Assembly (NCBI RefSeq): GCF_001695835.1
Contig: NZ_MBSO01000021.1
Span: 1-64,000 of the forward strand
Reading direction: 5' to 3'
DNA from: Ensifer sp. LC11
GTDB lineage: Bacteria; Pseudomonadota; Alphaproteobacteria; Rhizobiales; Rhizobiaceae
Length of the DNA: 64,000 nucleotides
A program made the translations under genes and the position numbers. Below the pieces are notes generated by a model that had not been told where the DNA came from, did no database searches, and saw only the letters and a list, made by a program, of their open reading frames with translations. Of this stretch, positions 37,806 through 51,034 are shown in pieces; position 1 is the stretch's first letter, and every line of letters starts with the position of its first letter.

Positions 37806-38148
37806 CGCTCTATCCCCGCTGCCGCTCCGGCGCTCTAAAGGCGCAGCCTCGAATTGTTACGATAAACTATCTGCATTGCAGGGGGCTCGGTGACCGACCG
37901 GGATGGGAAGCGTGGAGCGGTGGTTCGTGATCTGCGGCTAGAAGTCGTTCTCGAGCCATCAGCCGACATGCCCAATGCGTCGCTTGCTGCGGTAATGTTT
38001 TGCGCTAAAAGGATCGAACAATGTATCGACTGAAATAGCGCACGCTGGTCTCGTCTTCGCAAGAGCGAATTGATTACGGCCCGCTACTGCGCCACTACGG
38101 GTGAGGGCCACCCCTTCGGCTTTAGCTTTGAGACTTTGCGACGACGGA
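37806..38148. other. Non-coding stretch after the hypothetical gene
   Basis: 343 bp in which I see no coding frame with a plausible start, no strong hairpin and no repeat. Confidence 0.3.
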
Positions 38149-38331
38149 TCATTCCGCCGCATCAAGTCGGGAAAGGGCCTTCTGGCGTCGCGCGATCACC
38201 GCCGGATCGCTCACGAAATCCGTCCGCTTACCCGGCTTGCGGCCCCTCGGTTTGCAGCCATTCTTGTCGCTGTTCGGATACAGGGTTTGGTTGAAAGTCG
38301 TGCTGTCGCCGGTTGTCCGGGCATCTGCCAA
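38149..38331 (-). CDS. Possible small basic protein
   Basis: A 60-residue frame ending KPRGRKPGKRTDFVSDPAVI, then ARRQKALSRLDAAE. The second half has a natural-looking, charged, helical composition. The N-terminal third looks less protein-like, and no strong ribosome site is apparent. It could be the tail of a decayed gene. Function unknown. Confidence 0.3.
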   Translation of the reverse strand: MADARTTGDSTTFNQTLYPNSDKNGCKPRGRKPGKRTDFVSDPAVIARRQKALSRLDAAE

Positions 38332-38369
38332 CGACTATGTGTGCGGCAGCAAAGAAAGGATCAGAGCCA

Positions 38370-38507
38370 ATGCGTATTGTCACATTCTTGCTCGTACTCT
38401 CCGTGCTCGCCGGATGCTCCCAGACCGGCGGCGGTGCGAGCAGCGTCAGACAGGATTACTATGGTGGGGACGGCGGTTTCTACGCGGGCGCGGTTGCCCC
38501 GCGCTGA
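38370..38507 (+). CDS. Small putative lipoprotein
   Basis: 45 residues after AAAGGATCAGAGCC. MRIVTFLLVLSVLAGCSQTG shows a lipoprotein signal with lipobox LAGC, so the mature protein would begin at Cys15 and be only about 30 residues, rich in glycine and serine. Such tiny lipoproteins are common and of unknown role. Confidence 0.55.
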   Translation: MRIVTFLLVLSVLAGCSQTGGGASSVRQDYYGGDGGFYAGAVAPR

Positions 38508-39039
38508 AGCGGCGCCGGCGACGCTGCAGCGCGCTGCTGATGGCCGTGAAAACTACGACAACGGGTGAGGCTGACCAGCCGAGCTCAAGTCGGTGCGTGG
38601 TGTCGATCTGAAGATCGGACTTGGGGTTGCCTGGAACAAGGAAGACCCGACAGCCGCGCGGGACGACATCATCGACATCGCGCGGTCGGGCAGGTGAGGC
38701 AGTGGGACGGCATGCCGAGGGCGAATCAGTTGGAACCCAGGAGGCCACGGCAAACTCCAACGGCGTGCGGCGCCGAAGTAACGCTCAACCCCGATAGCCA
38801 GACATTTCTTCGGCCGGCGCGAGACCTCTCACGAAGCCCTTCACGTCGCGGCAATTGATCGATGGCTGCCGCGATGCTTGTCGCGAAGCCCAATGCGGTT
38901 AGATTGCGTCATTGATCAGTGCATTGCGTTTGGACTTGCTTGAGGTACCATCTTAAGGCGGCTCCGCCGAGCAGCGATGCCGCGACCGGTGCCTGCCGTC
39001 GACGATGCTGTTTAACGTGAGTTCGTGGGAGCGGTCAAA
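38508..39039. other. Sparse region before the histidine kinase
   Basis: 532 bp. A plus-strand stretch around 38580-38697 reads KSVRGVDLKIGLGVAWNKED followed by PTAARDDIIDIARSGR and a stop. It looks like an orphan C-terminal fragment of an unidentified protein. No other feature is visible; no GGAAC-type promoter was found for the kinase. Confidence 0.3.
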
Positions 39040-41097
39040 ATGCTGGTCGATATCAGCGATCCCAACGCATCCGAACAAGCCTTCCGTGCGAGCGAAGCGA
39101 AGTTCCGCGACATTTTCGAATGCGCCGGGGTTGCCGTTTGGGAACAGGATTTTTCCGGTGTCGCCGAACTCCTCGACAGGTTTCGGTCCGAGGGCGTTGA
39201 GGATCTGCGGGCCTATCTTGAGGCGCATCCCGACCGGTTGGACGAAGCGATTGCGAGCGTGCGGATCATCGACGTCAACCCGTTTACGGTGGAGATGTTC
39301 GAGGCCACGGAGAAAGGCGAATTGCTGCGCTCGCTCTCAAGCGTTTTCCTCCCCGAAACGGCACCGATTTTCCTGGAAGAGTTGGTGACCATCTGGGAAG
39401 GCCGCCGGCGCTTCGGCGCGGACACCGCCCTGCGTACGCTCCGAGGACGGCGGTTGGATGTTGTGTTCACCATCACTTTCGAGGGCCCCCATTACGAGCG
39501 CGCTTACGTCAGCATTCTCGACATCTCCCAGCGCAAGGCCGCGGAACGCCGGCTGGAGGCGGTCGATCGGATTGCCAAGGCGATCGCCAGCAACCTCGAT
39601 CTCGATCACATCGTTCAGACAGTTACGGACGCAGCGACCGAACTGACCGGCGCGAAATTCGGGGCGTTCTTCTATAATCTCGTTGACCCACAGGGTGAAA
39701 GCTACACGCGCTACACACTCTCCGGCGCTCCGCGCATTGCTTTCGAGAACTTTCAACTGCCGCGCAACACGGCTGTGTTCGAACCGACTTTCCGTGGCCT
39801 GGGCGTGGTGCGTTCGGACGACATCAGAGCCGATCCGCGTTATGGCAAATTGGCGCCCCACTTTGGCATGCCGAAAGGACATTTGCCGGTGGTGAGCTAT
39901 CTGGCGGTTCCGGTGGTGTCGCGTTCGGGGGAGGTGCACGGCGGACTGTTCTTCGGTCACGACCAACCCGCAATCTTTGCCGCCGATGCCGAGGACACGG
40001 TGATTTCGATCGCTGCGCATGCCGCGATCGCGATCGATAACGCCCACTTGCTCAAGGCAGCCGAACACGAGGTTACGGTGCGCCGCCAGGCCGAGCATGC
40101 CGCTCATCAGCTCGCCGCAATCGTCGAGTCGTCGGAGGACGCGATCCTGTCGATGGACTTGGACGGCATCATCACCAGCTGGAACGCCGGGGCCGAGCGG
40201 CTATACGGATACACGGTCGAGGAAGCCGTCGGAAAGCCGGTCACGCTTTTGATCCCAAATGATCGCCAGGGCGAAGAGCTGGACTTCCTGGCGCAGGTGC
40301 GCGCCGGCCGCCGCGTCGATCACTTTGAAACGCTGCGCCGGCGCAAAAATGGAGGGCTGATTCCGATCTCGCTCAGGATCTCGCCGATCCGCGACAATGC
40401 CGGGGCGGTCATCGGCGCCTCGAAGATTGCACGCGACATCAGCGATCGCAAACAGGCCGAGCAGCAGAAGGACCTGTTGATCCAGGAGATGGCGCACCGG
40501 GTCAAGAACCTGTTCATGGTATCGAGCAGCGTGGTGTCTCTGAGCGCCAAATCGGCCACGTCGGCCGACGAACTCGCCTCAGCCGTCATTGCGCGCTTGG
40601 GATCGCTGGCGCGAGCCCATGTGCTCACCTTGCCGACGGCGCATGGCGGTGGCTCGGGTGAGGGCCGGGCCAGTCTGCAGCCGTTGCTCGCCACAATCCT
40701 ATCGCCGTATGTCGGCGAGAACGGTCAGGGCCAGTGCCGGGTGACGACGCGCGGATGCGATCTGGGCGTCTCTCGCGCGGCAATCACTGGCTTTTCCCTG
40801 GTTGTGCATGAGTTCGCGACCAATGCCGCCAAATATGGCGCGCTTTCAACGGACACGGGCCATCTCGATCTTGAGTGTATCGACAGAGGAGGGGCGCTAG
40901 AGCTGATCTGGACCGAACGCGGCGGTCCCCCGGTGTCGGAATCCGAGACCGAGGGTTTCGGCACCAAGCTCGCCAAACTGACCATCGAAAGGCAGTTCGG
41001 TGGAGAAATCCTTCGTCAGTGGCACCCGGAGGGACTTGTCATACGGCTCACCATTCCGAAGGACCGGCTGCAGCCGTTCGACGAGACGAAATCCTAG
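39040..41097 (+). CDS. PAS-GAF-PAS sensor histidine kinase of the HWE family
   Basis: 685 residues from the ATG at 39040, eight bases after GGGAG. A PAS-like domain covers about 10-160. A GAF domain follows (about 165-330; TDAATELTGAKFGAFFYNLV). A second PAS covers about 350-470 (IITSWNAGAERLYGYTVEEA). The kinase core carries EMAHRVKNLF with the phosphoacceptor His, the N-box HEFATNAAKYGALS and the W-x-E motif LIWTERGG of HWE kinases. No membrane segment is evident, so it is a cytoplasmic sensor. HWE kinases often drive PhyR-type general-stress signalling, and a receiver protein sits 3 kb downstream. Confidence 0.9.
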   Translation: MLVDISDPNASEQAFRASEAKFRDIFECAGVAVWEQDFSGVAELLDRFRSEGVEDLRAYLEAHPDRLDEAIASVRIIDVNPFTVEMFEATEKGELLRSLSSVFLPETAPIFLEELVTIWEGRRRFGADTALRTLRGRRLDVVFTITFEGPHYERAYVSILDISQRKAAERRLEAVDRIAKAIASNLDLDHIVQTVTDAATELTGAKFGAFFYNLVDPQGESYTRYTLSGAPRIAFENFQLPRNTAVFEPTFRGLGVVRSDDIRADPRYGKLAPHFGMPKGHLPVVSYLAVPVVSRSGEVHGGLFFGHDQPAIFAADAEDTVISIAAHAAIAIDNAHLLKAAEHEVTVRRQAEHAAHQLAAIVESSEDAILSMDLDGIITSWNAGAERLYGYTVEEAVGKPVTLLIPNDRQGEELDFLAQVRAGRRVDHFETLRRRKNGGLIPISLRISPIRDNAGAVIGASKIARDISDRKQAEQQKDLLIQEMAHRVKNLFMVSSSVVSLSAKSATSADELASAVIARLGSLARAHVLTLPTAHGGGSGEGRASLQPLLATILSPYVGENGQGQCRVTTRGCDLGVSRAAITGFSLVVHEFATNAAKYGALSTDTGHLDLECIDRGGALELIWTERGGPPVSESETEGFGTKLAKLTIERQFGGEILRQWHPEGLVIRLTIPKDRLQPFDETKS

Positions 41098-41163
41098 CGG
41101 ACGTCCTTACTATTCTTGGCGTTGGCGATCCGACACCAGCCTTCCAGAAGCCCCCGGGCGAAC

Positions 41164-41188
41164 GGAACAACGACGGAAACGCGAAGTT
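41164..41188 (+). promoter_or_regulatory. EcfG-type promoter of the SDR gene
   Basis: GGAAC at 41164-41168, 16 bases, AGTT at 41185-41188; start codon 34 bases downstream. It fits the RpoE2/EcfG pattern GGAAC-N18-TT. Confidence 0.65.
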
Positions 41189-41221
41189 TGGTCACATCTT
41201 CTCTAGCCCAAGGAGACGAAG

Positions 41222-42082
41222 ATGACGCAAGAGTTCGTCAAGCCGCCATTCCCCGATCAGAAACAGGAGCCGCCGGGTCTCACCGACGCCATGATACCGG
41301 TTCCCGATCACGGCGAAACAAGCTATCGCGGTTCAGGAAGGTTGGCGAACAAGCGGGCGGTCATCACCGGCGGCGATAGCGGGATCGGGCGCGCAGTTGC
41401 GCTTGCCTATGCCCGTGAAGGTGCAGACGTGCTGATCGCTTATCTCAGCGAAGACGAAGACGCGAAAACCACCCAAACGTTGGTTGAGGCCGAGGGGCGC
41501 CGCGCGATCCTTGTTGCTGGCGATATTCAGGAACCCAGGCATTGCCGGCGCATCGTGACCACCGCGATCGACAAGTTGGGCGGCATCGACATTCTGGTCA
41601 ACAATGCTGCACACCAGGCGAGCTTCAAGGAGCTTCAAGAAATTTCGGACGAGGAATGGGAGCTGACATTCAAAGTCAACATCCATGCAATGTTCTATCT
41701 TGCCAAAGCCGCTGTGCCCCACATGCCGCCAGGCAGCGTCATCATCAACACCGCCTCGATCAACTCCGACCACCCGAACCCGACATTGCTCGCCTATGCG
41801 ACGACCAAGGGAGCGATCCACAATTTCACGGCGGGCCTCGCGCAAATGCTCGCGGACAAGGGCGTAAGGGTGAACGCAGTTGCTCCGGGTCCAATCTGGA
41901 CGCCACTCATACCGTCAACATTGCCGGAAGAAGCCGTCAAGACCTTCGGTCATCAGACGCCAATGCAGCGTCCTGGCCAGCCGGCAGAGCTTGCGACGGC
42001 CTATGTTATGCTTGCCGATCCGCTTTCGAGCTACGTGTCCGGCGCAACGATCGCCGTCACCGGTGGCAGACCATTTCTCTAG
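41222..42082 (+). CDS. Short-chain dehydrogenase, general-stress (YdaD/GSP39) type
   Basis: 286 residues behind AAGGAGACGAAG. The long proline-rich N-terminus (KPPFPDQKQEPPG) typical of stress-induced SDRs precedes the cofactor motif ITGGDSGIGRAVA. NNAA, the catalytic Ser region NTASINS and YATTK follow. The substrate is unknown; relatives are annotated as glucose dehydrogenase or general stress protein 39. An EcfG-like promoter lies just upstream. Confidence 0.88.
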   Translation: MTQEFVKPPFPDQKQEPPGLTDAMIPVPDHGETSYRGSGRLANKRAVITGGDSGIGRAVALAYAREGADVLIAYLSEDEDAKTTQTLVEAEGRRAILVAGDIQEPRHCRRIVTTAIDKLGGIDILVNNAAHQASFKELQEISDEEWELTFKVNIHAMFYLAKAAVPHMPPGSVIINTASINSDHPNPTLLAYATTKGAIHNFTAGLAQMLADKGVRVNAVAPGPIWTPLIPSTLPEEAVKTFGHQTPMQRPGQPAELATAYVMLADPLSSYVSGATIAVTGGRPFL

Positions 42083-42134
42083 AAGCGGAACGATTGAGAA
42101 CCAGCGATCAATGCCTTGCAGCCGCATTGTAGCT

Positions 42135-42159
42135 GGAACTTAAATGGCAACGGCGCATT
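42135..42159 (+). promoter_or_regulatory. EcfG-type promoter of the sigma-factor gene
   Basis: GGAAC at 42135-42139, 16 bases, CATT at 42156-42159, so TT stands 18 bases after GGAAC. The sigma gene starts 42 bases later, suggesting autoregulation. Confidence 0.55.
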
Positions 42160-42200
42160 GTTAGAAGAGCACGTTCAGCTTTTGCGAAAGGCAATTCTCA

Positions 42201-42719
42201 ATGCCTTCTCTTCATGAAACGGACCAGCGGTCTCCGCCGCTGGAGACCCAGGTTGTTGACCTTATTCCAGCGCTTCGGGCCTTCGCCCGCACATTCGTGT
42301 CGTCGAGCTTCGAAGCCGATGATCTGCTGCAAGAAACGCTTTTTCGGGCATTGCGCGGAATTGACGGCTTTCAACCGGGAACAAATCTCAAATCCTGGCT
42401 CTTCACGATCATGCACAATGCTTTCCGCACCCAGTACAAGCTACGCCGGCGCGAGTCGCCTGGCGTTATCAACTGCGCCGAGCTCCCGATCCCAATGCCG
42501 GCACCGCAGGATTGGTGCGTCCTGAACGTCGAGCTGCGCACAGCTCTCGACACTCTGGCACCGGATCACCGAGAGGTGCTGATCCTCGTTGCCGGATATG
42601 GCCTGAGCTATAAGGAAGCCGCCGATATTTGCGACTGCGCAGTGGGCACGATCAAGAGCCGGCTTAGCCGAGCGCGCGACGAGCTTGCTTTTCGCATGAG
42701 CGGATTTCCAATTCAGTGA
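42201..42719 (+). CDS. ECF sigma factor of the EcfG (RpoE2) type
   Basis: 172 residues. Region 2 spans about 20-85 (DLIPALRAFARTFVSSSFEA, DDLLQETLFRALRGI, NLKSWLFTIMHNAF). Region 4 spans about 110-165 (DHREVLILVAGYGLSYKEAA, CAVGTIKSRLSRARDELAF). The sequence fits the alphaproteobacterial general-stress sigma group. No nepR gene lies beside it, so it is probably an additional EcfG paralogue. It should direct RNA polymerase to the GGAAC-type promoters found throughout this island. Confidence 0.85.
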   Translation: MPSLHETDQRSPPLETQVVDLIPALRAFARTFVSSSFEADDLLQETLFRALRGIDGFQPGTNLKSWLFTIMHNAFRTQYKLRRRESPGVINCAELPIPMPAPQDWCVLNVELRTALDTLAPDHREVLILVAGYGLSYKEAADICDCAVGTIKSRLSRARDELAFRMSGFPIQ

Positions 42720-42752
42720 TATCGGCCGCATACGATTGGACTGGAAGACTTC

Positions 42753-43280
42753 CTAGTCAAGGTCATCAGAATCCGCGTCACCGTTGCGAGATTGAGGCGC
42801 CATGGATTTCGTCTCGGAGACTTGTGCCAAGAGCTGGAGCCTGTGTCGATACTCAGCGCCGTTGCGGCCCAGCCTTTCCAGTTGTTCCAGATTGTCCTGC
42901 AAATCTGCCCGTTTCACCACCAGGCTGAGGGGATTTTTGGCGGCGCGAAGCGTCAAGGCATCCTTGGTCTCGCCCGACTGAATTGTCAGCATTTCGACAG
43001 CGCATACCACCTCCGGGGAAAAGCCTGTCTCGATCAAGCGATCACGCGTCCAGCCCGGAGACTTCTCCAGGACGTCGTGCAGGAAGGCGACTGCCTTAGC
43101 TTTTTCGCCGACGACGGCGTCTGCCACTCTTTGGCAATGATGGAAGTATGGATCGCCTGCTTTGTCGAGCTGGCCCGAATGCGCATGCGCCGCGACGTCT
43201 CGCGCCGCTGCGCATTCTTCCATCGGCGACAGCGGCACCGGGGAGCGCCTCATGTCGCGCCGGTCACGAGGATCGGTCAC
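42753..43280 (-). CDS. HD-domain protein resembling a small alarmone hydrolase
   Basis: 175 residues; the ATG overlaps the CBS gene stop by four bases, fixing the start at 43280. The pattern AHAHSGQLDKAGDPYFHHCQ, then AVAFLHDVLEKS, matches the HD hydrolase half of RelA/SpoT enzymes. A (p)ppGpp hydrolase role is possible. However, the usual HDxxED reads HDVLEK here, so one catalytic acid is changed. The family call is moderate, the activity uncertain. It is co-expressed with DUF2934 and CBS proteins. Confidence 0.7.
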   Translation of the reverse strand: MTDPRDRRDMRRSPVPLSPMEECAAARDVAAHAHSGQLDKAGDPYFHHCQRVADAVVGEKAKAVAFLHDVLEKSPGWTRDRLIETGFSPEVVCAVEMLTIQSGETKDALTLRAAKNPLSLVVKRADLQDNLEQLERLGRNGAEYRHRLQLLAQVSETKSMAPQSRNGDADSDDLD

Positions 43281-43714
43281 TGCGCCGGCTTTTGATTGTG
43301 GGGGCCGCCTGGTGTTGTCACGCCCTTCAGTCCAATGCCGGCAAGACCCGGATCGCCCCGTGCCGCGTCGGCGAGAGACACGATGCCAACCAGGCGCTTG
43401 TCACGGTTGATGACCGGCAGGCGCCGGATCTGCTCATCGCCCATGTGGCGCGCGACCTCCGACAGTTCATCATCGTCGAAGCAATACCTGACGTCGGTCG
43501 TCATGATGTCGCCGACACGCGTCTTGCCGTCGCGACCGTCCGCCACATGCCGTACCACAATGTCGCGATCGGTTATCATGCCGACAAGGCGGTCGTTTTC
43601 GCCGACCGGCAGGAATCCGATATCGTTTTCAGCCATCTGTCGTGCGATATCCTGGATCAGGTCGTCGGGGCTGGCCACATGCACATCCCTGGTCATGATC
43701 TCTGCAATGCGCAT
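43277..43714 (-). CDS. CBS-domain pair protein
   Basis: 145 residues from the ATG at 43714 (GAAAGGAGCGAATC upstream). Two CBS motifs: MRIAEIMTRDVHVASPDDLI to MITDRDIVVRHVADGR, and VGDIMTTDVRYCFDDDELSE to LVGIVSLADAARGD. CBS pairs bind adenosyl ligands and act as energy or redox sensors. It is the second gene of a DUF2934-CBS-HD operon with an EcfG-type promoter. Confidence 0.88.
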   Translation of the reverse strand: MRIAEIMTRDVHVASPDDLIQDIARQMAENDIGFLPVGENDRLVGMITDRDIVVRHVADGRDGKTRVGDIMTTDVRYCFDDDELSEVARHMGDEQIRRLPVINRDKRLVGIVSLADAARGDPGLAGIGLKGVTTPGGPHNQKPAQ

Positions 43715-43730
43715 TGATTCGCTCCTTTCA

Positions 43731-43958
43731 TCAGCTTTCGTCAGCGCCGCGGTGGGCCTTGCCGTGCGGAGCGGTCGCTGGCGCCACGATCGTTCCGGTA
43801 TCTTCGTCCTCGCCCGAACCGGGTGCATCGGACGGCGGACCTTCCTCGATCTCTCGGCGCGCCTGTTCCCAGTGCCGTTCCTCCTCACCGAAAGGCCGCC
43901 CTTCGCTTTCCCAAATGGCATGGGCGCGGCGGCGAATACGTTCCTCTTTGTCATCCAT
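43731..43958 (-). CDS. DUF2934 small stress protein
   Basis: 75 residues beginning MDDKEERIRRRAHAIWESEG, the DUF2934 core (RRAHAIWESEGRPFGEEERH), followed by an acidic tail. Ribosome site GGAAGG. Proteins of this type are typical EcfG-regulon members of unknown function. It is the first gene of the three-gene operon. Confidence 0.85.
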   Translation of the reverse strand: MDDKEERIRRRAHAIWESEGRPFGEEERHWEQARREIEEGPPSDAPGSGEDEDTGTIVAPATAPHGKAHRGADES

Positions 43959-43993
43959 TGCAATGAGCCTTCCTTGATGGATTTGCCTCGCAA

Positions 43994-44018
43994 ACCAAGG
44001 AGAGCCAGATTTGTTCCG
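43994..44018 (-). promoter_or_regulatory. EcfG-type promoter of the DUF2934-CBS-HD operon
   Basis: On the minus strand, GGAAC (44018-44014), 16 bases, GGTT (43997-43994). The DUF2934 start codon lies 36 bases downstream. Confidence 0.65.
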
Positions 44019-44212
44019 ACAGGGGATGCATAGCCGCCACCGCAAGTCATAGGGGATGCGGGCTTGAAGACGTCGACGGAATCGAGCGGATCAGATTTGG
44101 GCGGATAGAGCGAAGCAACGTCGGGATGCAATCGATCGGCCGCACAGATGTTCGGCCAATGGGAGCCTGCAGTCGCGTGAGAAGAACCAAGCTTCGCTCG
44201 GCCGATCTGGTG

Positions 44213-44827
44213 TCAGTTCGGGCCGTTGGGGCTTTCGTTGTAAATGATGGCCATGAGCGCATGCAACCACTCTGCGAGCGGCTGGGATCTGCGCCTGATG
44301 GGTGCCAGATGGATCGCCCGCTCGAGTGTGCGCTCGACAAGAGTATCCGCGGCCGCCACATCCGACATCAATCGGCGCGCCCTCAGCCGCAATCCGGGAA
44401 CAAGGTCGACAATGTTATGCTCGTAAACCTCGAAATCTATGGGCACCAGGGTCGCCAGCTTTTGAAGGTGTTGTTCGAAGACAGCGCTGACGAGATCGGA
44501 CGAGCCCACGTCTTTGCTGAGACGAGCAGCGGAACTGAAACGTTCGGGAATGCTTAGACAGTCGTAGCCACTGAAAAAGATGAGAGGCACCGAGCGCCGC
44601 GCGAGTTCGTCAGCGACTGGATAGATCAACTCTCCATTGAGGTTGAAGTCGAGGACGGCGACCTGAATATCATCAGCGTTGAAGAGGCTCTTCAGCGCCT
44701 GCCGCACGGTCGGGCTCGGGCCGATGATTGTCGCCCCGGCTTGTTCCAGCCATGAGGCAATGTCATTTGCGACGTAAAATTCGTCCTCGGCCACCAACAC
44801 CCGCAACTGCTGCAGGTCCGGCATCAT
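44213..44827 (-). CDS. Receiver domain fused to a C-terminal sigma-region-2-like domain
   Basis: 204 residues. Residues 8-122 are a response-regulator receiver with the complete active site: Glu14-Asp15, phosphoacceptor Asp60 (VLDFNLNG), Ser86 in FFSGYD and Lys105. Residues 141-196 (DLVPGLRLRARRLMSDVAAA through EWLHALMAIIY) align without gaps to region 2 (residues 20-75) of the EcfG-type factor at 42201, with 19 of 56 positions identical by my hand alignment. No region 4 follows. PhyR has a sigma-like domain N-terminal to its receiver; this is the reverse order with half the sigma part. It may titrate an anti-sigma or core polymerase (inference). It lies 50 bases after the 45207 gene, probably in one operon. 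Confidence 0.8.
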   Translation of the reverse strand: MMPDLQQLRVLVAEDEFYVANDIASWLEQAGATIIGPSPTVRQALKSLFNADDIQVAVLDFNLNGELIYPVADELARRSVPLIFFSGYDCLSIPERFSSAARLSKDVGSSDLVSAVFEQHLQKLATLVPIDFEVYEHNIVDLVPGLRLRARRLMSDVAAADTLVERTLERAIHLAPIRRRSQPLAEWLHALMAIIYNESPNGPN

Positions 44828-44877
44828 TTCTTGTTCTCGGTCTGGTTCACGGGGTGCCTCAATTTCTTCTTGAGGTT

Positions 44878-45207
44878 TTAGCGTCCGCCATCGCCCGCCA
44901 CGGCTCGACGCGAATCCAGCGCCTTTTGCAACCTGTTTGCGAGTATCAGCAGACGATCCGGTATATCGTCGATCCGCGCGCAGCCGGCGCCGGCGGGATC
45001 TGTTGCCGGGTTGGTCGCCAACATATTGTCGGCGTCATCGCTTGTCTTCTTCCCCGCAGCCATCTTCGTCCTAGCCGCCAATTCGTTGCGATCTCGGGCT
45101 TGCTCGTCTTCACCGGCACCAGTTTGATCGGGCAGGCATTGAAACCGCGCGGACATGGCTGGTGGTGTCAGGACCGCCAAAACCCCAATGATGCACGCAG
45201 GTCTCAT
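44878..45207 (-). CDS. Small protein preceding the receiver-sigma gene
   Basis: 109 residues, not recognised. The N-terminus (MRPACIIGVLAVLTPPAMSA) looks like a signal or anchor segment; the middle is polar and probably disordered. The C-terminal helix DDIPDRLLILANRLQKALDS faintly resembles the PVPDRFLxLLxxL helix of the NepR anti-sigma factor. The first NepR helix is not visible. An EcfG-type promoter stands 33 bases upstream, which supports this being a real gene. Function unknown. Confidence 0.55.
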   Translation of the reverse strand: MRPACIIGVLAVLTPPAMSARFQCLPDQTGAGEDEQARDRNELAARTKMAAGKKTSDDADNMLATNPATDPAGAGCARIDDIPDRLLILANRLQKALDSRRAVAGDGGR

Positions 45208-45239
45208 CGCTGCCTCTCTGAAACTCCTGTCCGCGACAT

Positions 45240-45264
45240 AACACTGATCGACCGCAAACGTTCC
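45240..45264 (-). promoter_or_regulatory. EcfG-type promoter of the small-protein / receiver-sigma operon
   Basis: On the minus strand, GGAAC (45264-45260), 16 bases, TGTT (45243-45240), 33 bases before the start codon at 45207. Confidence 0.65.
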
Positions 45265-45324
45265 CGTTACGCCTCAAAGGATTCGGCGAAGGTCGCGTTT
45301 CTGTTGCCCGCCTCGGCTGGCATC

Positions 45325-45350
45325 GGAACAATTCGATGGCGCGGTTGGTT
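45325..45350 (+). promoter_or_regulatory. EcfG-type promoter of DUF3309 and topoisomerase IB
   Basis: GGAAC at 45325-45329, 17 bases, GGTT at 45347-45350, 40 bases before the DUF3309 start. Confidence 0.6.
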
Positions 45351-45389
45351 TGGAACGGAGAGTTCGAAGCAAAAATGAAAGGATCGAAC

Positions 45390-45545
45390 ATGCTTGGTAC
45401 CCTATTGCTGATCATCGTAATCCTACTGTTGGTCGGAGCATTCCCGGCCTGGCCGCATTCCTCCGGATGGGGGTATGGCCCCTCCGGGTTACTCGGCGTG
45501 GTCCTCGTCGTCCTCTTAGTCCTCCTGTTGATGGGGCGTATCTGA
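45390..45545 (+). CDS. DUF3309 small membrane protein
   Basis: 51 residues from the ATG at 45390. Two hydrophobic stretches (GTLLLIIVILLLVGAFPAWP and GLLGVVLVVLLVLLLMGRI) flank HSSGWGYGPSG, the hallmark of DUF3309. It is probably inner-membrane; function unknown. The stop codon directly abuts the topoisomerase start, implying co-translation. Confidence 0.85.
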   Translation: MLGTLLLIIVILLLVGAFPAWPHSSGWGYGPSGLLGVVLVVLLVLLLMGRI

Positions 45546-46574
45546 TTGGATGCGAGCAACGTGACGGGCCCTGCTGGCGCCGAGCTCGTCTATGTCTCCG
45601 ACACAGAGCCCGGTTTCAGCCGCACGCGCCTCCGAAGGGGCTTTCGCTATCGACGGCCGGACGGTTCGGTACTCAACGATCCCAAGATCATTGCCCGGAT
45701 AGAGGCGCTGGGATTGCCGCCGGCCTATGAGCGCGTCTGGATCTGCATGAAAGAAAATGGTCACCTGCAGGCGACCGGCTACGATGCCCGCGGCCGCAAG
45801 CAATACCGCTATCACGATGCCTGGCAGCAGCTGCGCAATCACAAAAAATTCGATCAGTTATCGGCCTTTGCCAGGGCGCTCCCGCGGATACGCCGAAAGA
45901 TCAGGCGCCAAATGGAAGGAACAGCGGAAGAGACAACGACTGTCCTTGCCGCGCTTGCCGCTCTCCTCGACCAGGAACCGCTTCGCATCGGCAATCCGAG
46001 CTATGTTGAGGAAAACGGGACCTATGGCGCCGCAACACTTCTGAAGCGCCATCTCAGGATCCACAATGATTGCATCGAACTGAACTTCAAGGGAAAAGGT
46101 GGGCGCCGTATCAAACGACGTCTTAGAAATCCCAGGCTGCAACGCGTTCTGGAGGATATTTCAGACCTTCCCGGACGGCAGCTTTTCGTTTCGATCGGCT
46201 CCGATGGCCGCCCACAGCCGATCGATTCCGGCCGCTTCAATCGCTATCTCGCCGATATCGCCACGATCCCCATCTCGGCAAAGACATTCAGGACCTGGGC
46301 CGGGAGTGTCGCAGCCTTTGCCGTTGCGCGGCAGGCGTTGAGCCAAGGCTCGCGACCCACCATCAGGCAAATGTGTGAAGCGGCCTCGGAGGTCCTGCAC
46401 AATACGAAAGCAGTCTGTCGCAAGAGCTACATCCATCCTGCCGTTCTCGCACTTTCGAACCCGGACACAAGGGCTTCCAAACGCCGCAGGAACGCGAAGC
46501 CCATTGCAGGTTTGCGAGCAGAGGAAGTCCTGCTTTTGAGGTTCCTGGAGTCGCAAAGATCCCAGAACTGCTGA
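45546..46574 (+). CDS. DNA topoisomerase IB (poxvirus-type)
   Basis: 342 residues from a TTG immediately after the DUF3309 stop. The N-terminal domain includes RRGFRYRRPDGSVLNDPKII, typical of bacterial type IB enzymes. The catalytic part contains KGKGGRRIKRRLRNPRLQRV, KTFRTWAGSVAAFAV and the active-site Tyr295 in NTKAVCRKSYIHP. It relaxes supercoils by a transient 3'-phosphotyrosine. Placement in an EcfG-type operon suggests a role in stress survival. Confidence 0.92.
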   Translation: MDASNVTGPAGAELVYVSDTEPGFSRTRLRRGFRYRRPDGSVLNDPKIIARIEALGLPPAYERVWICMKENGHLQATGYDARGRKQYRYHDAWQQLRNHKKFDQLSAFARALPRIRRKIRRQMEGTAEETTTVLAALAALLDQEPLRIGNPSYVEENGTYGAATLLKRHLRIHNDCIELNFKGKGGRRIKRRLRNPRLQRVLEDISDLPGRQLFVSIGSDGRPQPIDSGRFNRYLADIATIPISAKTFRTWAGSVAAFAVARQALSQGSRPTIRQMCEAASEVLHNTKAVCRKSYIHPAVLALSNPDTRASKRRRNAKPIAGLRAEEVLLLRFLESQRSQNC

Positions 46575-46640
46575 CGTCGCTCGACGTCCATCGGCCTTTT
46601 GCGCATCCCGGGCCGCTGCCGGTCCACACCCTCAGCCGGT

Positions 46641-46766
46641 TCAATTCGTCTGATCGATGGCATGCGGTGCCGGCTGGCTGCGGGGAACCTTGTGCGCCGG
46701 CAACGCAAACCATAAGGCGAACATGACCACAGCAAGTGCGATCAAAGTACCGATGATCTTGATCAC
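46641..46766 (-). CDS. 41-residue single-pass membrane protein with GTG start
   Basis: GGAGAGGCAGCC precedes a GTG at 46766. The frame reads IKIIGTLIALAVVMFALWFA, then LPAHKVPRSQPAPHAIDQTN and a stop. One N-terminal membrane helix is followed by a proline-rich tail. The excellent ribosome site makes it credible despite its size. Function unknown. Confidence 0.55.
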   Translation of the reverse strand: MIKIIGTLIALAVVMFALWFALPAHKVPRSQPAPHAIDQTN

Positions 46767-46870
46767 GGCTGCCTCTCCTCCACTTCGCGGACTGCTTCAA
46801 TCCCGAACGGCAAGCGATGTCCCGAACCGAGCGTCGGTGGCGGTCCACGATTGGCTCTCTGACCCCGCGG

Positions 46871-46895
46871 GGAACAAATGGCCTGGAGCCCAGTT
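46871..46895 (+). promoter_or_regulatory. EcfG-type promoter motif in an otherwise empty interval
   Basis: GGAAC at 46871-46875, 16 bases, AGTT at 46892-46895. The 338-bp gap 46767-47104 contains nothing else that I recognise. The next gene on this strand starts 209 bases later at 47105, so this would be a long leader, or the motif serves a small RNA or is fortuitous. Confidence 0.45.
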
Positions 46896-47104
46896 GGAAA
46901 TGGCTTCCTGAGGGCGCGCGCCGAGACGCTGGCGCAGGTGATCGCGCTGCTCTGGTCAGGAGTCCGCGATCCAAAAGCGCTCGAGAATGTGGCTGAAGGG
47001 TGACCTTCGAGCGCCCGCAGCCTTTGACGCGGCAGCGTTTGCACGTTCGGTTGACGGTTGTCCCGGGCCTGGTGCTGCGTCGGTCCAATGAACGAGGTGG
47101 TGAA

Positions 47105-47317
47105 ATGCCAAAGCTCGTGCGTTTTCTGATCTGGCATATGTCCTCCGGGTTTGTCCTGGGTGCCCTGACGGCGATGGCCATCGCCGTCCTTTATCCCCAT
47201 GCCCTCGGCCATCGTGATGCCATCGACCCGCTCGCGCTTGTGCTGCAAATCTTCGCCTTCGGCGCCTCATTCGCCCTCGGCAGCCTCGGCACCGCATTGA
47301 TGGGAAAGATCGATTGA
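47105..47317 (+). CDS. Small two-helix membrane protein
   Basis: 70 residues after GAGGTGG. Two hydrophobic helices (SSGFVLGALTAMAIAVLYPH and LALVLQIFAFGASFALGSLG) with a histidine-containing loop. Not a family I can name; probably inner-membrane. A 15-bp perfect hairpin ends the unit. Confidence 0.7.
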   Translation: MPKLVRFLIWHMSSGFVLGALTAMAIAVLYPHALGHRDAIDPLALVLQIFAFGASFALGSLGTALMGKID

Positions 47318-47333
47318 CCTCAAGGTTCGATAC

Positions 47334-47367
47334 GGACGCTTGGAGGCGCAATCGCCTCCAAGCGTCC
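47334..47367. terminator. Bidirectional terminator hairpin
   Basis: GGACGCTTGGAGGCG (47334-47348) and CGCCTCCAAGCGTCC (47353-47367) are perfect complements around CAAT. It lies between two convergent genes and has no T run, so it may act together with Rho or as a symmetrical barrier. Confidence 0.75.
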
Positions 47368-47374
47368 AACGCTA

Positions 47375-47866
47375 TCAGGCGGCGGCCTTCACGTTCGCCG
47401 CCGTCACCGCAAGCTTGCTGAGTGCCTTGTCGGTGGCGCCTTCTTCCTGGAGGGTCTTATCGAGTAGCGATACGGCGTCCTGCAGCCCGAGTTGCCAGGC
47501 CCATGTCTTCAACGTGCCATAGCGAGAGATCTCGTAGTGTTCGACCGCTTGGGCCGACGAAATAAGGCCGGCGTCGAGCGCCGGACTTCCCTTGAATGCC
47601 TCCATGATCTCCTCGCCCTCGGCGATAATGCCTTGAATGGCCTCGCAGGTCTTTCCCTGGGCTGGCTTGCCGAAAATTTCGAAGACCTGCTGCAAGCGTT
47701 CTACATGGACTTCGGTCTCGTCCCGATGCTTTTCGAACGCCGCCTTGCTGTCCGGCAGTTGCGCCGCGCGTGCCATCTTGGGCAACGCCTTCAAAATCTG
47801 TCGTTCGGCGTAGTAGATGTCCTTCAGACCATCATGGAACAGCGTTTCAAGCGTCTTTTGTGGCAT
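47375..47866 (-). CDS. DUF892 ferritin-like protein (YciE/YciF type)
   Basis: 163 residues from ATG 47866 (AAAGGAGGCTGAA). The four-helix ferritin-like pattern with acidic/histidine ligands is visible: LFHDGLKDIYYAERQILKAL, AAFEKHRDETEVHVERLQQV, and QAVEHYEISRYGTLKTWAWQ. The family is linked to osmotic and general stress, and likely binds a di-metal centre. It has its own EcfG-type promoter. Confidence 0.9.
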   Translation of the reverse strand: MPQKTLETLFHDGLKDIYYAERQILKALPKMARAAQLPDSKAAFEKHRDETEVHVERLQQVFEIFGKPAQGKTCEAIQGIIAEGEEIMEAFKGSPALDAGLISSAQAVEHYEISRYGTLKTWAWQLGLQDAVSLLDKTLQEEGATDKALSKLAVTAANVKAAA

Positions 47867-47899
47867 TTCAGCCTCCTTTGCCGTGTGTGGAGGCGATCC

Positions 47900-47924
47900 A
47901 ACATTGCCGAAGTACAAAGGTTCC
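47900..47924 (-). promoter_or_regulatory. EcfG-type promoter of the DUF892 gene
   Basis: On the minus strand, GGAAC (47924-47920), 16 bases, TGTT (47903-47900), 34 bases before the start codon. Confidence 0.65.
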
Positions 47925-48042
47925 GAAACGGGAACAAAAAGCCCGTTGGAAGACTTGGCTTACAGGCGCGCGGCCCTTCGTTTCGACGATGAACACATGT
48001 TTCGATGGAGCGTCAGCCCGCGCGGAAAAAAGGGAGGCCCAT

Positions 48043-48291
48043 ATGAAGAGAGACCAGCCTGCTTCGCGCGCGTTCAAGTCGATCGGGGGAAGCGATGTCG
48101 TAAAACGGGTTCGAGCCAAGGTCATAGATCCGGCAGAGGCCGTTTATCGGGGCCACTATGATCTGGCGGAGTTTATCGCCAGGTATGGTCTCACCCCCAT
48201 GGAAGCCCGCGAGATTTTTGTTCGGCTCGGTCCGGCGCGCTCCAATCTCGATCAATACATGAGGGAGCGCGACATAAAACTCAGCGACTGA
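48043..48291 (+). CDS. Small DUF3606-like protein
   Basis: 82 residues behind AGGGAGGCC. The core HYDLAEFIARYGLTPMEARE followed by IFVRLGPARSNLDQYM recalls DUF3606 proteins (a helical 'wt-kfgvs-eel' pattern), which are common in stress clusters. The assignment is from pattern only. A looser GGAAC-N17-ACTT motif lies at 47931-47956. Confidence 0.65.
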   Translation: MKRDQPASRAFKSIGGSDVVKRVRAKVIDPAEAVYRGHYDLAEFIARYGLTPMEAREIFVRLGPARSNLDQYMRERDIKLSD

Positions 48292-48467
48292 GCGCCGGCG
48301 CCGATTCAGGCCAGTGTCTCTGAGGCCTCCACGCCGTCTCAAGGGCGTGGAAATCCGATTTCGAAAGACGGCTGCTCCAGAAAGCGGTCCGCCGGACCTT
48401 CCAGTGTCCAACGGAGCGTGCCGTTACCGCGAACGACCTCGACGGCATGGTTGCTCCCACCGAGGAG

Positions 48468-48782
48468 CTAGTGCGAGGCGCGACGTTCGTTGCGTTTGCG
48501 CGTCTCGGCCGCCTTTTTCGCGGATGCGGAGCGCTCGGCTTTGGGGCGTTGCGCAGCAGCTCGACCGCCGATGCGTCCGCCCTTTTTCGCGGATTCGTTG
48601 GTGTCGGGCTGGCCGCGGCCGGAACCGGATTTATTGCCGCCACCGCTGTCCTTGTTGACGGTGGCCCAGGCACGGCGTTCAGCTTCCTTCTCAGACACGC
48701 CACGCTTTTCGTAGCCTTCGGCGATATGGTCCGCCTTGCGTTCCTGCTTGTCGGTGTACTTCGATTTGTCTCCACGGGGCAT
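48468..48782 (-). CDS. Small basic KGG-type protein, often annotated plasmid stabilization protein
   Basis: 104 residues from the ATG at 48782 (CAAAGGAGGTGGGGC). MPRGDKSKYTDKQERKADHI, AEGYEKRGVSEKEAERRAWA and a basic Ala/Lys tail (KKGGRIGGRAAAQRPKAERS) are typical of this stress-linked family. It is probably nucleic-acid associated and disordered at the C-terminus. A clean EcfG-type promoter precedes it. Confidence 0.82.
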   Translation of the reverse strand: MPRGDKSKYTDKQERKADHIAEGYEKRGVSEKEAERRAWATVNKDSGGGNKSGSGRGQPDTNESAKKGGRIGGRAAAQRPKAERSASAKKAAETRKRNERRASH

Positions 48783-48815
48783 GCCCCACCTCCTTTGGTT
48801 GAAGTCGCGAACACC

Positions 48816-48840
48816 AACCGCGACCACAATCAAACGTTCC
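48816..48840 (-). promoter_or_regulatory. EcfG-type promoter of the KGG-type gene
   Basis: On the minus strand, GGAAC (48840-48836), 16 bases, GGTT (48819-48816), 34 bases before the ATG at 48782. Confidence 0.65.
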
Positions 48841-49191
48841 CCGGAGACAGGTTGGAACAAAGGTCGATGAACGTGGTTTTTGCGATCCCGGAGCGCGCAT
48901 TGGCCTCCCTTGCGGAGGCCCTTTTTAATCGCTGCGCGTTCAACCCGGCCCAAGCGCTCGCCTCGCGCACATTCGTCCGGTCTCCTTGCCTGCCTTGACC
49001 GACTTCGATCTTCCGAACTGCAGCGTGATTGTCACAGACGGTGGGCCCGGCGCCGCCAAATGCCGCCCAGTTTCCTTTGAAGAACCACCTCGGTGATGAT
49101 CCGTCCGGTGCGGAAGCCAAGGCGCCGGAGCCTGAAAATTCCAGCGAGAACGCTCCATTCGCGCATCGTTTCCCGAGTATCGCACAAACGG

Positions 49192-49216
49192 AGAACCAAT
49201 CCGCCGCTGCCGAGTT
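49192..49216 (+). promoter_or_regulatory. Variant EcfG-type promoter of the CsbD gene
   Basis: AGAAC at 49192-49196, 16 bases, AGTT at 49213-49216, 33 bases before the start. It deviates from GGAAC by one base but has the same spacing and position as its neighbours. Confidence 0.4.
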
Positions 49217-49248
49217 GGGCACGGTTCAGAACGTTAGGAGGAACCGTC

Positions 49249-49458
49249 ATGGACTGGAATCGTGTCGAAGGAAACTGGAAGCAGGTGAAAGGCAAGATCA
49301 AGGAACAATGGGGTCGCCTTACCAACGACGACCTCGACCAGATCAACGGCAATCGCGAACAGCTAGAAGGCAGAATTCAGGAACTCTATGGGATAGAGAA
49401 GGACCGCATTCGCCGCGAAGTGGACGATTGGTACGATCGTCAGGCGTGGGACCGCTAG
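49249..49458 (+). CDS. CsbD-family stress protein
   Basis: 69 residues after TAGGAGGAACCGTC. MDWNRVEGNWKQVKGKIKEQ, then WGRLTNDDLDQINGNREQLE, is the CsbD signature, ending in an acidic tail with aromatic residues. CsbD proteins are small helical, abundant general-stress proteins of unknown mechanism. A terminator hairpin follows directly. Confidence 0.93.
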   Translation: MDWNRVEGNWKQVKGKIKEQWGRLTNDDLDQINGNREQLEGRIQELYGIEKDRIRREVDDWYDRQAWDR

Positions 49459-49464
49459 GCCCCG

Positions 49465-49500
49465 CTGCGCCCGCCGGGCTGTGTTGCCCGGCGGGCGTAG
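49465..49500 (+). terminator. Terminator hairpin after the CsbD gene
   Basis: CTGCGCCCGCCGGGC (49465-49479) pairs with GCCCGGCGGGCGTAG (49486-49500), one mismatch, loop TGTGTT. It starts seven bases after the stop codon. Confidence 0.75.
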
Positions 49501-49529
49501 TCGTCCAGCTTCCTGGACACGCTCCCGGT

Positions 49530-49823
49530 TTAGGGCGGTGGTGGACCGTTTTGCCGAGCTGCCCGTTCGGGAGGACAACTGATCCTCACGATGACGCGGC
49601 TCGCCCCGGCAATCGCCTCGGCGAGCTGCCGAACATATTCGGCCCCTCCGGGCCGATCGAGCACACCCTCAATGACGACGCTGTTTCCAAGCACCCGGAA
49701 ATTGAGGCTCCGCGTCTCTACCGACGGTTCGGCTTCCAACGCACATTTGATCGATGCAACGAGGCCCGAGATGGCGGCTCCATCGCCGCCTCGGCAATGG
49801 AACTCGGGAAGGATCAAAATCAT
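49530..49823 (-). CDS. BON-domain protein
   Basis: 97 residues from the ATG at 49823 (GGAAAGGAGACC). The BON pattern is visible: IKCALEAEPSVETRSLNFRV, LGNSVVIEGVLDRPGGAEYV and a final AGASRVIVRIS strand. No signal peptide, so it is cytoplasmic. BON domains bind lipid or osmotic ligands. It carries an EcfG-type promoter. Confidence 0.8.
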   Translation of the reverse strand: MILILPEFHCRGGDGAAISGLVASIKCALEAEPSVETRSLNFRVLGNSVVIEGVLDRPGGAEYVRQLAEAIAGASRVIVRISCPPERAARQNGPPPP

Positions 49824-49846
49824 CGCCGGTCTCCTTTCCTACACCC

Positions 49847-49871
49847 AACCGACATACCGACGCGTTGTTCC
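49847..49871 (-). promoter_or_regulatory. EcfG-type promoter of the BON gene
   Basis: On the minus strand, GGAAC (49871-49867), 16 bases, GGTT (49850-49847), 24 bases before the ATG. Confidence 0.62.
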
Positions 49872-49987
49872 GCAGCCTTGGTAAGCGCTCCGCGCGCCCT
49901 AGTTTTGCAGATAACGCGTCGGCGCAGGCTGGAGCGGACGCGGACCGGGCTTGACCCGCTGGAGCCAGTCTCAAGCAAGGAGCTGCC

Positions 49988-51034
49988 ATGCGCATCGCCC
50001 TCCTCGTCAACGCGCTCGAAACCGAAAAACCCACCTATACGACGACATCCCTGGCGCTTGCCGCCCTCTCGCGCGGCCATGACGTTCTCTACATCACACC
50101 CGGCGACTTTAGCCTCGGCCCGGACGATGCGTTGATGATCCGGGCAACGAACTTGCCTGACGCACGGCCCAAGAAACCGGAAACGCTGCTGCGCGCCGTT
50201 ACGGCACCGGAGCGGGAAAGAACGCTCGTGAATGTTGAAGAGGTGGATGTGCTGTTCCTGCGAAATGATCCGTCGGAAGATGCCGACAGCCGACCGTGGG
50301 CTGCGCATGCAGGCGCCAATTTCGGCCGCCTTGCCGCAGAAAGAGGGACAATCGTCGTCAACGACCCCTGCGGCCTGGCCCTGGCGCAGGACAAGCTTTA
50401 CTTTCAGGACTTTCCCGCGAACGTTCGCCCCACGACGTTGATCTCCAAGGATATCGAGGAGATCCGAGCGTTCATCGACAAGCACCCCGACGGCGTCATC
50501 GTCAAGCCGTTGCAGGGATCGGGGGGCAAGAACGTCTTCAGGATCGCAAGCAGCACGGAATCGAACCTTAATCAGATCGTCGACGCTGTTGGCGAAGTCG
50601 GCTATCTGATTGCCCAGAGCTACCTTCCCAAAGCGTCGGAGGGCGATACCCGGCTGTTTCTCATGAACGGACGGCCGCTTCGGCGTGATGATGTCTATGC
50701 CGCGTTCAGGCGTGTTCCGGCCAAAGGGGACGTGCGGTCCAACCTCCACGCAAGAGGAACGCCGAAGCCGGCCAATGTCACGAAAGAGATGCTGGCAATC
50801 GCGGAAACTTTGCGCCCAAAGCTCGTTGAAGACGGTATGTTCCTGGTCGGCCTCGATATCGTCGGCGACAAGTTGCTCGAGATTAACGTGTTCACGCCCG
50901 GCGGCCTCCAGACCATCCGTGAGCTTTGCGGTGTCGACTTCTGCGAAGACATCCTGGATTCGCTGGAGAACAAGGTCGCGATCAGGAAGACGTATCGCCG
51001 CACGTTGAGCAACCGCATCCTGTCGACCCTTTAA
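49988..51034 (+). CDS. ATP-grasp ligase resembling glutathione synthetase
   Basis: 348 residues with ribosome site CAAGGAGCTGCC. The ATP-grasp core is clear: DGVIVKPLQGSGGKNVFRIA for the nucleotide loop, YLIAQSYLPKASEGDTRLFL, and the metal site LLEINVFTPGGLQ. Overall layout is that of GshB, but the N-terminal substrate domain diverges and the chain is somewhat longer. The true substrate may be another peptide or amino acid. It stands in the stress island beside the TIGR02587/02588 pair. Confidence 0.82.
   Translation: MRIALLVNALETEKPTYTTTSLALAALSRGHDVLYITPGDFSLGPDDALMIRATNLPDARPKKPETLLRAVTAPERERTLVNVEEVDVLFLRNDPSEDADSRPWAAHAGANFGRLAAERGTIVVNDPCGLALAQDKLYFQDFPANVRPTTLISKDIEEIRAFIDKHPDGVIVKPLQGSGGKNVFRIASSTESNLNQIVDAVGEVGYLIAQSYLPKASEGDTRLFLMNGRPLRRDDVYAAFRRVPAKGDVRSNLHARGTPKPANVTKEMLAIAETLRPKLVEDGMFLVGLDIVGDKLLEINVFTPGGLQTIRELCGVDFCEDILDSLENKVAIRKTYRRTLSNRILSTL

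Follow-up and report, generated by a model that had tools for sequence, protein, structure and literature searches.

Extra EcfG-type sigma factors of rhizobia and their relatives are often plasmid-borne. Why such factors, R. etli EcfG2 among them, are retained with no anti-sigma factor or PhyR recognised nearby is, in the account of PMC3892343, not satisfactorily explained. In a 64,000-nucleotide stretch of the genome of Ensifer sp. LC11 (contig NZ_MBSO01000021.1, positions 1 to 64,000; hereafter the window), a non-canonical EcfG-type sigma factor gene lies 1.5 kb from a gene that encodes a receiver domain followed by a lone sigma region 2-like domain, which we call REC-sigma2. This raises the question of what a protein of this layout does, and on which partner it acts. 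The first-pass annotation described a single gene; the finding is larger than that: REC-sigma2 forms a conserved family whose genes are tied to non-canonical EcfG factors and in many cases lie near one for a NepR-like protein (mini-NepR). REC-sigma2 and mini-NepR are thus candidate genes for both missing controls of the extra EcfG factors, and the question becomes directly testable.

A receiver followed by a lone sigma region 2-like domain

The REC-sigma2 gene occupies 44213..44827 on the minus strand, with its ATG at 44827 and its stop codon at 44213-44215, and encodes 204 residues. Pfam places Response_reg at residues 10-96 and PhyR_sigma2 (PF22029) at residues 141-192, both under the Pfam cut-offs (for PhyR_sigma2, E 7.4e-5 and 23.2 bits against a curated cut-off of 27); several relatives exceed the PhyR_sigma2 cut-off, for example those in genomes G278 (39.2 bits), G311 (33.9) and G071 (31.6). 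AlphaFold2, run with 19 homologues, predicted a receiver fold and helices at residues 139-153, 157-177 and 184-198. The order of domains proposed in the first-pass annotation, opposite to that of PhyR (sigma2-sigma4-REC), was borne out in 32 aligned homologues, all of which stop shortly past region 2 and have no region 4.

The receiver domain (about residues 8-127; 44447..44806, minus strand) was delimited by Pfam, AlphaFold2 and alignment. It is complete, as had been claimed, with E14, D15, D60, S86 and K105 all present; across the 32 homologues E14, D15, D60 and K105 are invariant and position 86 is Ser or Thr. This set of two acidic residues, phospho-Asp, Ser/Thr and Lys is also that of PhyR. 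By profile, the closest receivers in the PDB are 2lpm, which we take to be Sma0114, and 5ieb (SdrG). The receiver motif reads PLIFFSGY in the window and PF.F[FYL][ST]G in most relatives, near the FATGUY motif, given as PFxFATG(G/Y) in PMC5964349, with the A replaced. The receiver of REC-sigma2, with its PF.FFSG, is close to the type of the FATGUY single-domain regulators (SdrG, MrrA and Sma0114), but unlike these, which have no output domain, REC-sigma2 carries a sigma2 tail.

This tail (about residues 137-198; 44234..44419, minus strand) was assigned by Pfam, AlphaFold2, Foldseek and a PDB profile search. Aligned without gaps to the product of the sigma factor gene at 42201, it is identical at 21 of 57 positions, a recount of the 19 of 56 originally given, and 5000 shuffles of the tail reached 15 at most. 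The checks suggested with the first-pass annotation, a profile search and a structure prediction of the tail alone, both point to sigma region 2. Against Pfam the isolated tail matched PhyR_sigma2 as the sole family (E 1.6e-5), and a profile of 32 tails matched RpoE (5uxx_A, E 1.2e-8), region 2 of SigR (1h3l, E 3.9e-8) and, with E 5.2e-5, the sigma-like domain of PhyR (2lfw_A) in the PDB. AlphaFold2 predicted three helices in a region 2 fold (23 rows, mean pLDDT 87.7), for which the top Foldseek match was RpoE in complex with NepR (5uxx_A, rmsd 1.2 Å); rows 1-47 were all ECF sigma factor or PhyR entries, with weak E-values, 0.028 at best, for so small a domain. L163, V164 and L188 are invariant in 32 sequences, and the pN/pS of the tail is 0.19-0.51 within Ensifer.

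Core-contact residues and relation to PhyR

In sigma factors, D, Q and E/D of region 2.2 contact the beta-prime coiled coil of core polymerase, at positions that presumably correspond to D403/Q406/E407 of sigma70. All three are kept in 37 of 37 EcfG2-like factors, compared with 0, 0 and 1 of 33 parsed PhyRs and 0, 0 and 2 of 32 REC-sigma2 proteins, two of which (L038 and L084) were read by eye. The EcfG motif was located by a pattern requiring D/E, D, then Q/H, which no EcfG2-like row failed; two of 35 PhyRs and four of 29 EcfG1-like rows failed it and stand outside the counts. The pattern of loss supports the earlier proposal that REC-sigma2 is a sigma mimic and speaks against its being a sigma factor. 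Because REC-sigma2, like PhyR, has lost the contact residues of region 2.2, core polymerase, one of the targets originally considered, looks unlikely.

A tree of 98 region 2 domains placed REC-sigma2 in one group (support 100/99), PhyR in another (100/99) and EcfG in a third (94/84); it was built on 71 columns, has long branches and is read here for its groups, with no branch order claimed. An origin of REC-sigma2 by recent rearrangement of PhyR was rejected on the separateness of its group.

REC-sigma2 resembles PhyR (RsiB1/RsiB2), the anti-anti-sigma factor in the general stress response of alphaproteobacteria, in joining a receiver to a sigma region 2 mimic without core-binding residues and in being linked with genes for HWE kinases, NepR-like proteins and EcfG; it differs in its reversed order and in having no sigma4. 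It scores 37.3 bits against the NCBIfam PhyR-family model PRK09191, which has a cut-off of 240 bits, and compared with EcfG (ECF15) it is without region 4 and without the D/Q/E set. Mext_0132 of Methylobacterium is likewise a lone EcfG-group region 2, but in PMC4814048 it is counted as a sigma2-only EcfG paralogue among the sigma factor paralogues, and that account, as far as we have it, mentions no receiver. In keeping with the first-pass annotation, which knew of no described family with this layout, no REC-then-sigma2 protein is described in the open-access literature that we searched.

Occurrence of the REC-sigma2 family

Counting matches that reach the tail, we found at least 20 REC-sigma2 genes in at least 19 genomes, that of the window included, out of 297 in its GTDB family. 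In the class, 4 of 385 genomes, again with the window genome, hold one among the matches listed, which comprise the best eight candidates per genome; REC-sigma2 may be commoner in the class than counted, but it is not common. Plasmid records gave 33 matches at 80% coverage. Among twelve examined, eleven of these (H11, H13-H18, H20, H25, H26 and H32) plus H49, nine carry an intact REC-sigma2 (Martelella, Tistrella, two of Paracoccus, Ketogulonicigenium, Roseivivax, Mesorhizobium, Shinella and Ensifer), one carries a split form and two are non-members. The survey of homologues thus revealed a conserved family with records from Paracoccus to Tistrella, and among the named records, those from Hyphomicrobiales, Rhodobacterales and Geminicoccales show a conserved tail. 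That the tail is a local artefact, or the gene truncated, was rejected on the family count and the conserved end.

A NepR-like gene upstream of REC-sigma2

The first-pass annotation had looked to NepR or the sigma factor as targets of REC-sigma2. Its idea of sigma mimicry was supported, but it overlooked a small NepR-like gene just upstream, whose product we favour as the direct partner over the two canonical NepRs and over the sigma factor. This mini-NepR gene (44878..45063, minus strand; 61 residues), identified by profile searches and alignment, carries the second-helix motif of NepR only, and its stop lies 50 bases before the start of REC-sigma2 in the same orientation. With the six Ensifer rows left out, a profile of the 15 mini-NepRs from other genera matched this ORF alone (E 4.3e-8) among 1389 in the window, the next being at 1.9. 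Alignment, hhalign and pN/pS mark out a conserved core, IDDIPDRLLILANRLQKALDSRR (44905..44973, minus strand), in which 15 Ensifer pairs gave pN 0.06-0.21, pS 0.23-0.88 and pN/pS 0.08-0.29. We placed the start at the ATG at 45063 because MAxxKK is common to the six Ensifer sequences. The frame is also open upstream to an ATG at 45207 (44878-45207), with a signal-peptide-like beginning, MRPACIIGVLAVL; this upstream start is similar in locus L050 and not in L038, and it may therefore be a separate or overlapping reading.

When a canonical NepR profile was run over 12,907 ORFs of REC-sigma2 neighbourhoods and related loci, the top three were small ORFs in L081 (E 8.4e-5, 0.4 kb from REC-sigma2), L062 (2.6e-4) and L075 (4.3e-4), the latter two both about 4.5 kb away. 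An hhalign comparison of mini-NepR with 19 canonical NepRs gave a probability of 87.9 and E 3.2e-6 (a single comparison) over 37 columns, and when the mini-NepR profile was searched against 177,635 PDB sequences, NepR chains took the first two places (E 0.014 and 0.020). These comparisons establish, at the level of sequence profiles, that the mini-NepR family is homologous to NepR, a homology detectable for the family and not for the window copy alone: against canonical NepR that copy scores 6.2 bits (E 0.61), so that its link to NepR rests on its relatives. Among ten mini-NepRs scanned with Pfam, NepR was the sole match for three (E 0.0004-0.007, under the PF18557 gathering score), five weakly matched unrelated families (the strongest in L061, E 5.6e-4), and two, the window copy among them, had no Pfam match. 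In the reverse direction, the mini-NepR profile gave a weak match (E 0.031) to one of the two canonical NepRs of the window genome and none to the second. Given the scores under the Pfam cut-off and this weak reverse match, we term the family NepR-like, not NepR.

Like NepR (RsiA1/RsiA2), mini-NepR has an E..P.Rll.L...L..A core, and the sigma-linked copies keep the hydrophobic positions of the preceding helix. Unlike NepR, it stays under the Pfam cut-off, typically has LA..LQ.AL..R where NepR has LL..L..AE and, in most copies linked to REC-sigma2, is without the first-helix pattern. At E 0.01 the profile matches 73 of the 297 family genomes, the weakest matches including a canonical NepR (G222); in the window genome there is only one match at this threshold, which would make it the sole dedicated anti-sigma candidate there.

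Linkage of REC-sigma2, mini-NepR and EcfG2-like genes

The sigma factor gene of the window (42201..42719, plus strand) is of the RpoE5/EcfG2 type by Pfam, profile and its 72% identity to the pSymB sigma factor of S. meliloti 1021, which is taken to be RpoE5 (SMb21484); it lies about 2.2 kb from mini-NepR. We compared 30 REC-sigma2 loci with about 7-8 kb on each side (the window, L050-L068, L075-L078, L080-L082, L084, L085 and L220). Of these loci, 20 have a mini-NepR no more than about 8 kb away (HMM, E up to 0.012), in some cases at 4-6 kb, and L080 has a borderline one (0.07); neither HMM nor motif search found one in L053, L055, L057, L058, L060, L063, L065, L066 or L067. The stop of mini-NepR overlaps the start of REC-sigma2 in L038, L050 and L056, and an EcfG-type sigma gene is present in 16 of the 30 loci. 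The REC-sigma2 islands that were read hold stress genes such as those for catalase, ferritin-like, DUF4142 and SDR proteins, and in the window CsbD, DUF892 and DUF2934. Positions 38000-50000 of the window form a stress-gene island that also encodes SDR, HD_4, CBS and topoisomerase IB proteins.

Linkage to sigma genes was assessed with 51 mini-NepR matches (E up to 2.2e-5), 70 EcfG2-like factors (to E 6.1e-42) and 20 REC-sigma2 genes. For 21 of the 51 mini-NepRs the start is no more than 1.5 kb from an EcfG2-like sigma gene, against about 0.03 expected by chance, and 38 lie within 30 kb (about 0.6 expected). Genomes without REC-sigma2 show the same trend, with 16 of 33 matches within 1.5 kb and 26 within 30 kb. 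An EcfG2-like factor occurs in 46 of 48 mini-NepR genomes versus 65 of 297 overall; Fisher values for the linkage overstate it because the genomes are related. Four of the 19 family genomes with REC-sigma2 (G073, G092, G278 and G288) have no EcfG2-like factor at the threshold, and in G092 a lower-scoring one lies beside REC-sigma2.

In S. meliloti 1021 a mini-NepR lies 39 bases from rpoE5 and converges with it. Lang et al. 2018 (PMC6180224) noted, downstream of rpoE5 and opposite SMb21687, an ORF that had no annotation and resembles RsiA1/RsiA2, very likely this member of the family; that account, as far as we have it, concerns one ORF and mentions neither a family, nor REC-sigma2, nor a tested function. 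No mini-NepR was found near R. etli EcfG2 (p42f, 40,000-75,000), the best studied such factor in the literature covered here; this agrees with PMC3892343, according to which an anti-sigma gene is not found there.

Helix content of mini-NepR and genomes in which PhyR or NepR was not detected

We scored four hydrophobic positions of helix 1, picked after the sequences had been viewed. Mini-NepRs that adjoin only a sigma gene keep all four in 9 of 9 cases; those that adjoin only REC-sigma2 keep none or one in 8 of 9, the exception being L081 with three, and with L220 (score 3) and L076 (score 1) added, 9 of 11 score 0-1. The five that adjoin both genes score 2, 2, 4, 4 and 4. Kinship bears on these counts: six of the nine REC-sigma2-adjoining copies are from Ensifer, and five of the nine sigma-adjoining ones (S. 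meliloti and four of genus g46) are close relatives. Genomes G271 and G235 each hold one single-helix and one two-helix mini-NepR. The simplest reading of these sequences is that a mimic without sigma4 would need only the mini-NepR helix presumed to meet sigma2.

REC-sigma2 also occurs where the canonical proteins escape detection. At E 1e-20 neither G329 (Tistrella) nor G311 gave a PhyR, and no NepR passed the cut-off in G311, G329 or G556 (also Tistrella), with profiles that can miss diverged genes. The two PhyR_sigma2 matches of G556 at E 0.001 are both sigma factors where read, and those read in G311 are sigma factors or REC-sigma2, bar two ambiguous ORFs. Both Tistrella genomes have an EcfG-type sigma gene and REC-sigma2, which in G556 adjoins a mini-NepR; a T. 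mobilis record has, consecutively on one strand, the genes for REC-sigma2, mini-NepR and an HWE kinase. A single cluster of G311 holds REC-sigma2, mini-NepR, an EcfG2-like sigma factor, a CheB-CheR-PAS-HWE kinase and a single-domain receiver.

Candidate kinases and promoter

The link to an HWE kinase claimed in the first-pass annotation holds in so far as a GAF-PAS-HWE histidine kinase gene (39025..41097, plus strand; Pfam and neighbourhood), a candidate phosphodonor, is nearby; it lies 3 kb from REC-sigma2 on the opposite strand, however, and the linked kinase elsewhere is mostly of another type, a CheB-CheR-PAS-HWE protein of about 1050 residues. An HWE kinase of more than 1000 residues occurs in 13 of the 30 loci; ten of the 13 were classified, six as CheB-CheR-PAS-HWE by Pfam, three by annotation as CheR family and one as GAF/PAS-HWE (L084).

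Membership of the EcfG regulon, which had been read from the promoter, fared less well. With a strict pattern we found no EcfG-type box directly upstream of REC-sigma2; the nearest, at 45264-45240, is 437 bases upstream, in front of mini-NepR. This possible promoter of the mini-NepR/REC-sigma2 pair (GGAAC-N16-TGTT; 45240..45264, minus strand) is weak, with a non-consensus -10. On the sense strand within 600 bases upstream, the strict pattern occurs in 9 of 31 loci versus about 3.9 expected, which is merely suggestive, and direct EcfG control by a strong promoter was rejected.

A putative partner switch and its alternatives

With modest confidence, we favour the view that REC-sigma2 is a single-lobed counterpart of PhyR which, once phosphorylated, captures mini-NepR and frees a sigma factor of the RpoE5/EcfG2 type. 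HWE kinases would phosphorylate the receiver: in over a third of the loci the linked phosphodonor would be a large HWE kinase, mostly CheB-CheR-PAS-HWE and often accompanied by a single-domain FATGUY-type receiver, and for the window the GAF-PAS-HWE kinase is a possible donor. Phosphorylation would expose the region 2 mimic, the mimic would capture mini-NepR as a dedicated anti-sigma factor, and the sigma factor so freed would turn on the stress-gene island. The sequences show the two domains and their conservation, the loss of core-binding residues, the homology of the mini-NepR family to NepR, the operon-like layout and the linkage; the phosphorylation, the binding, the direction of the switch and its sigma target are what we infer. 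Several points count against this partner switch: nine of the 30 loci gave no mini-NepR, and in others it is borderline or 4-6 kb away; four of the 19 family genomes with REC-sigma2 have no EcfG2-like factor at the threshold; the window copy of mini-NepR scores low against canonical NepR; R. etli EcfG2 has no mini-NepR close by; overexpression of S. meliloti RpoE5 changed one putative target, according to PMC6180224; and the canonical NepRs of the window genome could be the target instead. More tentatively, and as something possible rather than probable, the switch may be halved and insulated: the mimic would have lost sigma4 and mini-NepR the presumed sigma4-facing helix, leaving one sigma2/helix 2 interface, and the non-canonical EcfG factors would have their own phospho-control beside PhyR-NepR-EcfG, maybe as the sole such switch in Tistrella. 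If both proteins did shrink together, they would reduce the PhyR-NepR switch to its smallest working interface and would also offer another switch beside the first, perhaps with no cross-talk between the two.

The canonical NepRs lead to a reading that we regard as quite unlikely, in which REC-sigma2 is an extra anti-anti-sigma factor for NepRs of the RsiA1/RsiA2 type and channels the input of accessory kinases to the main stress response, mini-NepR being incidental. The window genome does have two canonical NepRs and two PhyRs, 19 of the 22 REC-sigma2 genomes searched have a NepR over the cut-off, and the receiver and sigma2 are both of stress-response type; yet the canonical NepR genes of the window genome are on contigs other than that of REC-sigma2, the linked gene is mini-NepR, G311, G329 and G556 have REC-sigma2 and no NepR over the cut-off, and the loss of sigma4 should weaken binding to a two-helix NepR. 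It is unlikely, too, that the short mini-NepR is instead a ligand of REC-sigma2, keeping it inactive or aiding its phosphorylation, a role proposed for NepR towards PhyR, and that a two-helix copy by the sigma gene is the real anti-sigma factor. Such a division of labour would suit the coexistence of both forms in G271 and G235, the operon-like arrangement of the single-helix form with REC-sigma2, and the part that NepR takes in PhyR phosphorylation in the accounts of PMC8999054 and PMC12148442. The window, however, has the single-helix form only (1389 ORFs), and its genome the one match at E 0.01.

Two further alternatives seem to us very improbable. As a phosphorylation-gated half sigma factor, REC-sigma2 would act on core polymerase or pair with the EcfG2 sigma factor; its tail has the fold of sigma region 2 and split sigma factors are known (SigO-RsoA of Bacillus), but, as in PhyR, the contacts have been lost, D and Q from all 32 homologues and E/D from 30 of them. 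Equally improbable is a role mainly as a FATGUY-like phosphate sink or hub with a vestigial tail: against the FATGUY-like receiver, and the hub function of such a receiver in Caulobacter reported in PMC5964349, stand the conservation of the tail across three orders, its invariant L163, V164 and L188 and its pN/pS within Ensifer.

Related receiver genes and unusual family members

Several loci show related arrangements. The split form on a plasmid of Rhizobium sp. ACO-34A (L083, 7001-7590) has receiver and sigma2 in two overlapping ORFs of 129 and about 66 residues, and is either a frameshift or a naturally split REC-sigma2. The two non-members were tblastn matches. In Rhizobium BG4 (H32) a receiver gene is followed by a separate full ECF gene, and in Rhizobium NZLR1 (H49) the receiver is fused to a part that is Crp-like by sequence reading. 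On the plasmid of Rhizobium sp. BG4 (L079, 6917-7951), a receiver gene of REC-sigma2 type has a full EcfG2-like sigma gene in tandem at its 3' side, an arrangement that may illustrate how a receiver comes to be fused to a sigma factor. Another fusion of a REC-sigma2-type receiver occurs in Rhizobium (L086, 2610-3761; L259, 32241-33413), joined to a regulator part annotated as helix-turn-helix (Crp-like by reading) and near single-domain receivers and CheB/CheR-type genes. G311 has two open frames of 550 and 506 residues (L217 and L218) with C-terminal parts that match the REC-sigma2 tail (E 2.3e-14 and 1.4e-13); their N-terminal parts may be wrong-frame extensions. One cluster of G105 (L263, 540-2018) contains a two-helix mini-NepR and an EcfG2-like sigma gene, together with a receiver gene whose end directly adjoins the sigma gene.
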